A stretch of 49,836 nt of DNA, taken from contig PLUM01000027.1 of NCBI GenBank assembly GCA_003165465.1, forward strand, positions 1-49,836, written 5' to 3'. Every line of letters begins with the position of its first letter. Within the stretch, counting starts at the first letter, position 1. The notes beneath the pieces are model-generated. The model made no database searches. It worked only from the letters and a program-made list of their open reading frames with translations, and was not told where the DNA came from. Source of the stretch: Acidobacteriota bacterium. Its GTDB lineage: Bacteria; Acidobacteriota; Terriglobia; Acidiferrales; UBA7541. Positions 46,770-49,836 of this stretch are shown piece after piece. Both the position numbers and the translations under genes were made by a program.

Positions 46770-46819
46770 GACACAACTAAGCCGCCATCCTATCACAACG
46801 GTGCAAGTTTCAGGCTTTC

Positions 46820-46844
46820 TTGCCAGTGGCACACCACGAGGAAA
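46820..46844. repeat. 25-bp direct repeat, right copy
   Basis: Starts TTGCCAGTGGCACACCACG; 24 of 25 bases as at 37388-37412. Located 50 bp before the recombinase start, where an attachment site is often found, but the partner copy does not bound a plausible island (the space between contains acpS and aroK). Confidence 0.6.
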
Positions 46845-46893
46845 AGCAACCCGGCGCGGCAAAACCAAGCACGGTGACAGGAAGGTGACACCC

Positions 46894-47867
46894 ATGATGA
46901 AAAAGTACGGGAAGTACTACGCCGACTGGACCGACGAGCACGGCAAGCGGAGACGAAAAGCGTTCCCCACAGCGAAGGGAGCGCAACAGCACCAGACCAA
47001 GGAAGCCCGCCGCGCCGCCTTAAAAAAAGCCCCAGCCTCGGCACCGTCGCGGCAATCGTCGAGGCGTGGCAAACCGCCAAAAGCCCGCCGCGCGACAGAA
47101 GTGTCGCCCGCCAAGTGACCGACATGTGCGGACCACTCACGCCGCACCAGTTCACCGAGAAGCACATCGAACTGCTGGTGACAGGCTGGAAAAAGCGTTA
47201 CGCGCGAGCCACGCTCTACGGCTCGCAAATCATCCTGCGCCGAATCGTCGCCGCCATCGGAGCCGCAAGCGGTCGGCCCTACATCCATCAGGAAGTCAAA
47301 TTCGGGCGGGCACCCACCGCCCGCAAAACCATCGCCACGCCGGAAGAGATCGCCGCACTACTCGCGGCGTCGCCCGCGTGGATTCGGCTCCTCATCTTCC
47401 TCGGCGCTCACGCGGGCTTTCGCATCAGCGATTGCATGCGCGTCGCGCCAATCCATTTCAACCGCGCCAGCTCCACCATCACCATCGAGCAGCAAAAAAA
47501 CGGCAGGCCCGTCACCGTCCCGGCGACCGCCGCGCTGCAAGCCTACTTCCACGAAGAGTGGGACGGCTCGCACCAGCCCCTCTACATCCACTTCCGCGGA
47601 AAACGCATCAGCAAAACCGCATTCAACAAAAAGTGGGCGGCCCTGAAAAGAAAAACCGGAGTCAACCCGAACCTGTGGTTCCACGACCTGCGGCGCACGC
47701 TGGCCGTTTCCCTCTACGAACTCACAAAAGATCTCCGCGTCGTCGAGCAAATGCTCGGCCACGAGTCGCTCGCATCCACCATCCACTATCTGGAGCACCG
47801 CGACCCGGCCAAACTGAAGCCGTACCTCGCCGCACTCTTCACCCCCAAAACGGCGGTGATCCAATGA
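46894..47867 (+). CDS. Tyrosine recombinase (integrase) made by -1 frameshift
   Basis: The gene is split over two frames. Frame 1 (46894-47118, 74 residues) gives MMKKYGKYYADWTDEHGKRR, an AP2/arm-type DNA-binding start. The other frame continues from the A7 run at 47022 with LKKSPSLGTVAAIVEAWQTA (SAM-like core-binding domain, its natural start lying upstream of the ATG at 47115) and a catalytic domain with HAGFRISD (Arg about 176), HDLRRT (His264, Arg267), LGHES (His about 290) and the nucleophile Tyr about 299 in TIHYLEH. A -1 slip on A-AAA-AAA joins both into a 324-residue enzyme of normal length. It would integrate or excise the element occupying 46.8 kb onward. A truncated relative is at 42137. 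A simple indel in the A run is the alternative. Confidence 0.85.
47022..47065 (+). promoter_or_regulatory. Candidate -1 programmed frameshift signal
   Basis: Slippery heptamer A-AAA-AAA (47022-47028) in phase with frame 1 (TTA AAA AAA), a 6-nt spacer (47029-47034), then a stem GCCTCGGC/GTCGAGGC (47035-47042 with 47058-47065, one G-U pair) holding an inner CCG/CGG. Spacer and stem positions are those of known signals such as dnaX and IS3/IS1-type elements. Confidence 0.65.
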
Positions 47868-48211
47868 GGCGCATCTGCGCGTGGTGCGGAAAAAACCTCG
47901 GGTTCAAATGCCCGCATTGCAGCCGCCCGCTCACCATCATCGAAAACCCGCGCGGCGAGGGAAAGGTTCTCGCGTGCGTCGCGGACGGCCTCACCGGAAA
48001 AACCACAATCGTATTCGGCCCGCAGGTCGCCCGCGACTGGCAAACCACCCACGGCATCTGCACCGACTGCACCAACCGCGAAGCTTTCAACGCCAAGCAC
48101 GAACCGGAAATGACGCTGGAAGACATCGCCAACCTGCACGCCTACTTCACCGAGCCGTCCGACCCCGACGACATCGCCGAACTCGAATCAAAGATCGACG
48201 GGGACAAGTGA
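47864..48211 (+). CDS. Zinc-ribbon protein of the element
   Basis: A 115-residue protein with three Cys pairs: CAWCG (5-8), CPHC (16-19) and, after about 50 residues, CTDC (about 68-71), a likely zinc-binding fold; the C-terminus is acidic (EPEMTLEDIANLHAY, DPDDIAELE). No known family is recognised. The ATG overlaps the recombinase stop by ATGA, so it is translated with the recombinase. Confidence 0.7.
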   Translation: MRRICAWCGKNLGFKCPHCSRPLTIIENPRGEGKVLACVADGLTGKTTIVFGPQVARDWQTTHGICTDCTNREAFNAKHEPEMTLEDIANLHAYFTEPSDPDDIAELESKIDGDK

Positions 48212-48296
48212 CGCCGATCAGCGAGCGCGACGAAAGAAGCATCGCCGCGCTCGATGGGCTCGGCAACCGTGGCGAACGCCACAGAGAGGAAACAAA

Positions 48297-48524
48297 ATGC
48301 TCGACCGAATCGAAAGAGCAAAAGCAAGAATCGCCACGCTTCACCTTGACACCACCAGCGAGCGCGACCGCGAATTGCGGCGCGTCACCGTCGATGAAAC
48401 GGACTCCATCGAAACGCTGCTGACGGAGCTTCACCGTCTCCACATCGCCATCAGCGTACAAGGAGCCGAACTCGCCGTCCTGAACGGAACGCTCGCGGGC
48501 AAAAAGGCCACCGCGAAAAAATGA
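48297..48524 (+). CDS. Small coiled-coil protein
   Basis: A 75-residue protein predicted helical throughout (RIERAKARIATLHLDTTSER, SIETLLTELHRLHIAISVQG) with a basic tail (GKKATAKK). The start has GAGGAAACAAA upstream. Unknown function; it overlaps the next gene by ATGA. In the 85 bp before it a GTG frame from 48208 is open but unconvincing. Confidence 0.6.
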   Translation: MLDRIERAKARIATLHLDTTSERDRELRRVTVDETDSIETLLTELHRLHIAISVQGAELAVLNGTLAGKKATAKK

Positions 48525-48772
48525 CCGAGACAACATCACAGGCCGTCGCCATGGCGACGGCAGCAATCACGGACGCCATCTCGGAGATGATCTCCTACTC
48601 CTACCGAATGCGCGGCCAACAAATGCAACTCACCGAGCCCCAGTTCCGGCGAATCATCGCCGGATACTTCGAGCAAAAAACCCTAAAAGACTGGTGCGAT
48701 ACCTTCGGCGTCGAACCAACCGAAAACGACGAAGCCGCCAGCAACACAGGCAAACGCTTCCGAGCCAACTAA
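48521..48772 (+). CDS. Small helical protein of the element
   Basis: An 83-residue protein (AVAMATAAITDAISEMISYS, then QLTEPQFRRIIAGYFEQKTL) with no recognised motif. Its start overlaps the previous gene by ATGA. The ordered overlaps of this gene chain suggest one transcript from the recombinase on. Confidence 0.6.
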   Translation: MTETTSQAVAMATAAITDAISEMISYSYRMRGQQMQLTEPQFRRIIAGYFEQKTLKDWCDTFGVEPTENDEAASNTGKRFRAN

Positions 48773-48852
48773 AAAAAAGGTACCACGGGGGTACACAAAG
48801 AGGCACGGGAACCCGTCCAGACGACGCCCGCAAAAGAGACGGCACACCCGCT

Positions 48853-48879
48853 GACACCGCGCCGCGCAGGCGCGGTGTC
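48853..48879. other. Hairpin GACACCGCGCC/GGCGCGGTGTC
   Basis: An 11-bp perfect stem with a 5-nt loop GCGCA between two element genes, without a T run. It is 19 bp before the next ATG (48898), so it may limit transcription or translation of that gene. Confidence 0.65.
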
Positions 48880-48897
48880 GGCAGAAAGGAAAACAAA

Positions 48898-49125
48898 ATG
48901 ATCGTCAACAAAGAACAGATCACACTCCGCGAGGCCCGGAAGCAAATCAGCAAAATCCTAGCAGCGGGCCAAACGGTCGCCATCGGCAAGCCGTACGAGA
49001 ACGTCCGAGGCTTCATCGTCGGAGTACCCACGCACGACCGCCGGAACAAATCCGCGAAAGCAAAAGCGTTCAAAGAAGCGAAGGCGCGATTCATCGCCGC
49101 ATGGAGCGAGCAGAGCAAGGACTGA
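48898..49125 (+). CDS. 75-residue basic protein
   Basis: Begins MIVNKEQITLREARKQISKI and ends in a Lys/Ala-rich helix (SAKAKAFKEAKARFIAAWSE). It is probably DNA-binding given its charge and position just before the palindrome array, but no fold is recognised. AAAGGAAAACAAA precedes ATG 48898. The upstream frame is open to 48694 without a start signal. Confidence 0.6.
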   Translation: MIVNKEQITLREARKQISKILAAGQTVAIGKPYENVRGFIVGVPTHDRRNKSAKAKAFKEAKARFIAAWSEQSKD

Positions 49126-49651: not shown

Positions 49652-49685
49652 ACACCGGACCTGATCGGCGCGGATCGTGCAGCCC

Positions 49686-49773
49686 ACATAATTGGACGTT
49701 ACCGGAGCGCCGCTGCGCTGGCCGAAAAGCGCGGCCAGCGCAAAACGCGCCGTCCGGTAACGCGCAATTATGT
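49686..49773. repeat. Bipartite inverted repeat (cruciform) near the window end
   Basis: Three nested arm pairs: ACATAATTG/CAATTATGT (49686-49694 and 49765-49773), CGTTACCGG/CCGGTAACG (49697-49705 and 49754-49762) and TGCGCTGGCCG/CGGCCAGCGCA (49714-49724 and 49732-49742), with a 7-nt tip loop. It has the plan of a recombination or replication site. It does not match the AAC/GTT orientation of integron attC. Confidence 0.7.
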
Positions 49774-49836
49774 CAGGGGGGCACGCCCCACGCCGATCAG
49801 GGAAAGCTTCCGAACGACGCCGATGGCGCGGGCTGG

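Follow-up and report, generated by a model that had tools for sequence, protein, structure and literature searches.

Why should a recombinase gene be laid out in two reading frames? The question is raised by positions 46894-47867 of contig C34:1-49836, the 49,836-nucleotide stretch (the window) of an acidobacterial metagenome-assembled genome (4.6 Mb, 121 contigs, 89% complete, 6.9% contamination), where an integrase gene of an integrative element is split. An earlier note on this DNA had proposed that the two frames are joined by a -1 slip of the ribosome. We confirmed that the two-frame integrase is real, and the sequence comparisons presented here support the proposed reading: a 324-residue tyrosine recombinase very probably produced by conserved -1 programmed ribosomal frameshifting. 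The parts of the gene are the following.

46894..47118, plus strand: N-terminal frame, 74 residues and stop; residues ~1-45 form a predicted DNA-binding domain (profile present in 29 distinct loci; beta-beta-beta-alpha model)
47022..47028, plus strand: slippery heptamer A AAA AAA, read as AAA AAA AGC in the -1 frame
47035..47065, plus strand: stem-loop, predicted stimulator, 6 nucleotides (nt) past the heptamer; arms 47035-47042 and 47058-47065, with compensatory changes in relatives
47028..47867, plus strand: tyrosine recombinase catalytic part in the -1 frame, 279 residues after the slip and stop; PF00589, 84.3 bits

The 74-codon frame starts with the ATG at 46894 and stops at 47116-47118, while the -1 frame terminates at the TGA at 47865-47867; a slip at the heptamer would therefore yield a product of 45 + 279 = 324 residues. 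Both frames and their stops were re-read in the sequence, and the A7 run, the 8-bp stem, its 6-nt spacing and the lengths of the shifted and unshifted products all proved to be as first described. The stem arms, GCCTCGGC (47035-47042) and GTCGAGGC (47058-47065), form 8 of 8 pairs, one of them G-U. The match of the catalytic part to PF00589 lies well above the curated cut-off of 27.1 bits, and no DDE family was matched in this Pfam comparison. Across 27 aligned relatives R98, H218, R221, H244 and Y253 are invariant and K156 is nearly so; these are the residues that we take to be catalytic in tyrosine recombinases, and the joined enzyme holds all of them, as had been claimed.

Relatives came from four sets: 300 near genomes (8 matched, counting the source genome), 399 genomes of the class (21 matched), 300 of one family (17 matched) and a phylum-level set of 396 genomes (24 matched at a laxer limit). 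A profile of the N-terminal part, built from 14 seed copies, was run against all frames of the gathered loci and was found in 40 of them. Removing 10 re-fetched loci (same place or same scores) and 1 identical copy left 29 distinct loci, which include the window and a copy on contig C21 of the source genome and exclude a truncated copy on C18 (L004). The catalytic frame was the N-terminal frame minus one in all 29 loci with both parts, and in none was it in frame 0 or +1. Sixteen of the 29 lay outside the seed set, and four split-gene genomes are single contigs of 4.4-6.8 Mb (G260, G290, G337 and G369). Both other copies in the source genome, C21 with 55% identity and the truncated C18, show the N-terminal frame, an A7 run with GCC after it, and the continuation in the -1 frame. 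At L009 (G000:C18, minus strand) a truncated integrase copy comes after a presumably dksA-like gene and runs into what appears, by eye, to be a NUDIX-type gene. Scans of genome contigs gave no locus at first and then L018, whose scores are the same as those of L011; viral contigs gave 1 distant locus in a first scan and none in a second, and phage records gave none. The kin belong to the class Terriglobia of the Acidobacteriota, and the N-terminal part of one relative is from a named species, Silvibacterium acidisoli (locus L037).

The split does not extend to all integrases. The profile did not detect an N-terminal part at L003, L005-L007, L010, L039, L046, L049 or L052-L072, the last being the loci added by the phylum search (no N-part match in any of them), and inspection by eye of nine loci lacking such a match revealed no additional split gene. 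The distant integrases P0069, L003 and L053 (~24-32% identity) have, by eye, an ordinary N domain in a single frame. Judged from these comparisons, the -1 split is the mark of one integrase family, not of all integrases. Aligning homologues, which the earlier note had suggested as a check, thus returned the same split frames in every distinct locus with both parts, with a recurrent heptamer and stem, and close homologues with an uninterrupted frame, which would have spoken against frameshifting, were found neither among the 29 loci nor among 70 protein homologues (N-domain profile, E<0.1).

We then counted X XXY YYZ heptamers in the overlap of the N-terminal and -1 frames of the 29 loci. The N-terminal frame holds 28 such heptamers, in 26 of the loci, whereas 1000 codon shuffles produced them in 8.2 loci on average and in 16 at most; the other two frames of the same overlaps hold 17 and 6, in 15 and 6 loci. 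In 24/29 loci a heptamer lies 100-140 nt from the start of the N-terminal part, at the end of the N domain (A AAA AAA in 12, C CCA AAA in 8, G GGA AAA in 2, A AAC CCT in 1 and A AAA AAC in 1), so that 22/29 carry one of the first three types; two second sites occur in C CCA AAA loci. As for the remainder, the heptamer of L044, C CCA AAC, is at nt 155 and the sole one of L038 at nt 173; L017 and L042 lack one. L038, L017 and L042 share a C CCT in the linker, a tetramer described in the main text of PMC4066793 as shift-prone in E. coli with a stimulator; L050 fits none of these patterns. In the best tree built from 28 catalytic parts, in which 10 of 25 inner branches are poorly supported, the site type changes 9 times, against a minimum of 6 for seven types, and the split is kept. 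A split that is kept while slippery heptamers swap is a prediction of selection for frameshifting.

The sequence past the heptamer was analysed in 28 loci by comparing the best helix right after the site with phase-matched positions of the same gene. The stem ranked in the top 5% of in-gene positions in 20/28 loci, with a median of 2.1%, and that of the window was matched or exceeded at 2.4% of the positions in its gene; Fisher's combined p of 3.5e-20 is indicative only, as the loci are related and the control positions overlap. Duplex energies gave a mean z of -2.2, with 16/28 loci in the top 5%. Plain folding z-scores over 60 nt downstream did not distinguish the site from controls and were not significant. 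A MAFFT alignment of the 28 junctions was too gapped for pair counts, a ten-locus set also contained gaps, and covariation was scored in seven of the eight CCCAAAA loci, which align without gaps; L028, with a stem one codon wider by eye, was excluded, and L025 and L036 were retained with stems off register and counted as partly unpaired. In this set a 9-pair stem was 79% paired, with 6 pairs changed on both sides, and its covariation of 0.439 exceeded the shuffled mean of 0.132 (0/500 as high) and that of every slid register. The 6-nt spacing in the window falls inside the 4-10 nt past the motif at which, according to the main text of PMC4066793, IS3 hairpins begin.

The joined protein could also come from an mRNA with an altered number of A residues, if RNA polymerase stuttered on the A7 run. 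AAAAAAA, present in 12 of the loci, may make the polymerase slip (main text of PMC4066793), and such slippage is favoured for several transposase families in the main text of PMC3711429. This explanation does not fit the eight CCCAAAA and two GGGAAAA loci, whose heptamer has four A only (six in a row in L034), nor the -1 direction at all 29, given in the same text of PMC3711429 as a mark of ribosomal frameshifting; and it leaves aside a stem with compensatory changes after the heptamer. We consider transcriptional slippage improbable.

Protein databases suggest another layout, in which two separate genes encode a DNA-binding protein (the N-terminal part) and a shorter recombinase whose start lies within the second frame (for instance at GTG 47115). 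Gene callers place the recombinase start there (P0001, 250 residues), 60 of the 70 catalytic-part homologues are no longer than 292 residues, and a few loci have an early start codon in the -1 frame (L011 at +27, L033 at +30, L034 at +24 and L048 at +36). However, the -1 frame is conserved from the heptamer to 47115, and in the window it has no ATG, GTG or TTG from its upstream stop to that position. In 6 of the 29 loci the -1 frame lacks these codons as far as 120 nt beyond the start of the profile, a start codon upstream of the slip site is present in only 4/29, and the heptamer and stem would be purposeless if the genes were separate. This reading is therefore very unlikely. Eight of the ten longer homologues (P0011, P0014, P0015, P0017, P0021, P0022, P0028 and P0060) extend past the junction upstream in the -1 frame, as shown by the junction KKSP or KKRP. 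The N-part profile matched none of the 70 homologues at E<0.1 (best P0021, E 0.1); among candidates of up to ~130 residues it retrieved 23 proteins, all of 43-129 residues. When the first 60 residues of the joined protein served as query, 7 candidates came up, none of which reached E<=1; this search depends on shared five-residue words and so has limited reach. Public annotation handles the integrase halves as separate genes: databases show a short 'hypothetical protein' and a truncated 'integrase', an annotation that the proposed frameshift would explain, and such elements are therefore easily overlooked.

That sequencing or assembly went wrong here, or that the gene has decayed, so that the A run should have some other length, has next to no chance of being correct: the source is a metagenome-assembled genome, homopolymers are error-prone and at least one locus (L035, with an internal TAG) looks decayed, but the same split in the same direction recurs in 29 loci, the four single-contig genomes included, two other copies in the source genome have A7 at the same place, distant relatives keep the split at CCCAAAA or GGGAAAA with only four A, the catalytic residues are preserved, and such recurrence would require independent identical errors.

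Frameshifting of the integrase thus remains the preferred reading, and a mechanism can be proposed on it. On reaching A-AAA-AAA (47022-47028), ribosomes would join the two frames by shifting back one nucleotide, with predicted help from the stem at 47035-47065. Those that slip would make the 324-residue tyrosine recombinase, and those that do not would make the 74-residue N-terminal part only. This part is predicted to bind GGTGAC-type boxes near the start codon and at the element ends; it may act as a regulator of integration, and probably restrains integration, excision or its own expression. Modelling predicts a beta-beta-beta-alpha fold for the N domain with a weak likeness to the DNA-binding domain of Tn916 Int; Foldseek returned no match for this domain at E<=0.001, and a sequence search of the PDB gave nothing convincing.

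The integrase gene is shown to be part of a 4.69-kb site-specific integrative element, whose remaining features in the window are listed below.

46816..46831, no strand assigned: left copy of the 16-bp direct repeat TTTCTTGCCAGTGGCA, attL core; exact repeat, with the right copy at contig 51506-51521, beyond the window
46873..46889, plus strand: two GGTGAC boxes (46873-46878 and 46884-46889) beside the start codon, predicted arm-type sites; recurrent upstream boxes
47864..48211, plus strand: next open reading frame (ORF), 115 residues, zinc-ribbon-like; its ATG overlaps the integrase stop (ATGA)
49660..49836, no strand assigned: left part of a hairpin-rich stretch of the element, which continues past the NN gap at contig 49837

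The exact 16-nt repeats enclose the 4.69 kb, and the element adjoins lysS. An empty site was found in two genomes of the same genus (G004 and G005), where the flanking gene and its neighbour lysS are separated by TTCCTTGCCAGCC...TATACT; searches of three other kin genomes gave no match. In the kin genomes a promoter-like sequence, TTGCCA-17-TATACT, is uninterrupted. The right repeat (L073:7511-7539, contig 51510-51538) retains the -35-like TTGCCA of this predicted lysS promoter, and insertion would therefore restore it.

The split gene is found in other elements of the class Terriglobia; lengths of 3.0-4.8 kb were obtained for five of them. In the C21 copy the 13-nt repeats are separated by 4.81 kb. 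Six further elements were inspected: in four, repeats of 53, 29, 55 and 26 nt flank 3.05, 3.24, 3.04 and 4.78 kb, respectively, and three of the repeats coincide with tRNA-Met or tRNA-Arg genes; another consists of two tandem copies spaced by 3527 nt (L080, G189:C6:47000-66000) with identical integrase regions, and the G369 element yielded no direct repeat. At least two GGTGAC or GGTGTC boxes (either strand) occur within 70 nt upstream of the N-terminal part in 19/29 loci, against a mean of 0.1 in shuffles, and GGTGAC-type boxes recur at the right ends of the window and C21 elements. These right ends (L073:7387-7475 and L074:5091-5179) are nearly identical over ~90 bp, though the integrases share 55%, and carry GTCACC/GGTGAC boxes and a TTGACAC that, were the element excised as a circle, would point towards the integrase.

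In 25/27 loci the stop codon of the integrase overlaps the start codon (ATGA, GTGA or TTGA) of a small ORF of at least 50 residues that comes next, and these ORFs vary by lineage. In a check for relaxase or transfer genes, four ORFs past the integrase in the window (47864-49122) had no curated Pfam match, in a scan that covered the window part of the element only. The hairpin-rich stretch (window 49660-49836; L073:5661-5874; L074:3459-3625) ends in a palindrome with 36-nt arms and NN at its centre, exactly where the window ends; the C21 copy has the same layout, with N on each side of the centre. Rfam gave no match at the gathering threshold over L073:2700-7600.

In IS1 and IS3 transposases (IS, insertion sequence) a -1 frameshift likewise joins an upstream DNA-binding ORF to a catalytic ORF. 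Unlike these, the catalytic domain here is a tyrosine recombinase, not a DDE transposase, and integration takes place at a single site, with direct repeats and often in a tRNA gene; by analogy, it appears to work like an IS1/IS3 transposon without being one. Tn916 and lambda integrases, with an arm-binding N domain and core-binding and catalytic domains, are encoded in one uninterrupted frame, whereas here the N domain and the remainder lie in different frames. Tec2 of Euplotes is another likeness, a tyrosine-type site-specific recombinase of a mobile element which is said (Doak et al. 2003) to need a programmed frameshift; Tec2 is from a ciliate, whereas the integrase here is bacterial and would use a -1 shift, with slippery heptamers and a stem. 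PMC4759687 and PMC5011710 describe +1 frameshifting in many Euplotes genes. PMC5009743 covers the use of frameshifting by IS transposases and its control of excision through FseA in a Mesorhizobium integrative and conjugative element (ICE); there a +1 shift occurs in a transcriptional activator, and here the shift would sit in the recombinase. The word 'integrase' is absent from the main text of PMC3711429 and PMC4066793 and from the opening 300,000 characters (of 475,107) in PMC5009743, and the only relevant frameshift passage in PMC10111431 concerns a phage gene. Among the literature matches listed, with subscription papers mostly outside reach, no bacterial tyrosine recombinase made by frameshifting was found, in line with the earlier note, which had called such control known for IS transposases and unusual for this class. 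As far as seen, the mechanism is known, and the tyrosine-recombinase class and the tiny-element type are new for it.

Collectively, these data make it likely that an entire family of bacterial tyrosine recombinases is produced through -1 frameshifting alone. IS-sized, site-specific elements of Terriglobia would have arrived independently at the IS1/IS3 design, the ribosome setting the ratio of DNA-binding regulator to integrase and shifted ribosomes also switching on the next gene via the ATGA overlap. The elements are tiny and present in a named species, Silvibacterium acidisoli, and the claim is therefore directly testable. In the literature searched, frameshift control in bacterial mobile elements is otherwise that of transposases and one ICE activator; its conservation among site-specific tyrosine recombinases would mean that this brake has also emerged in enzymes of an unrelated class.
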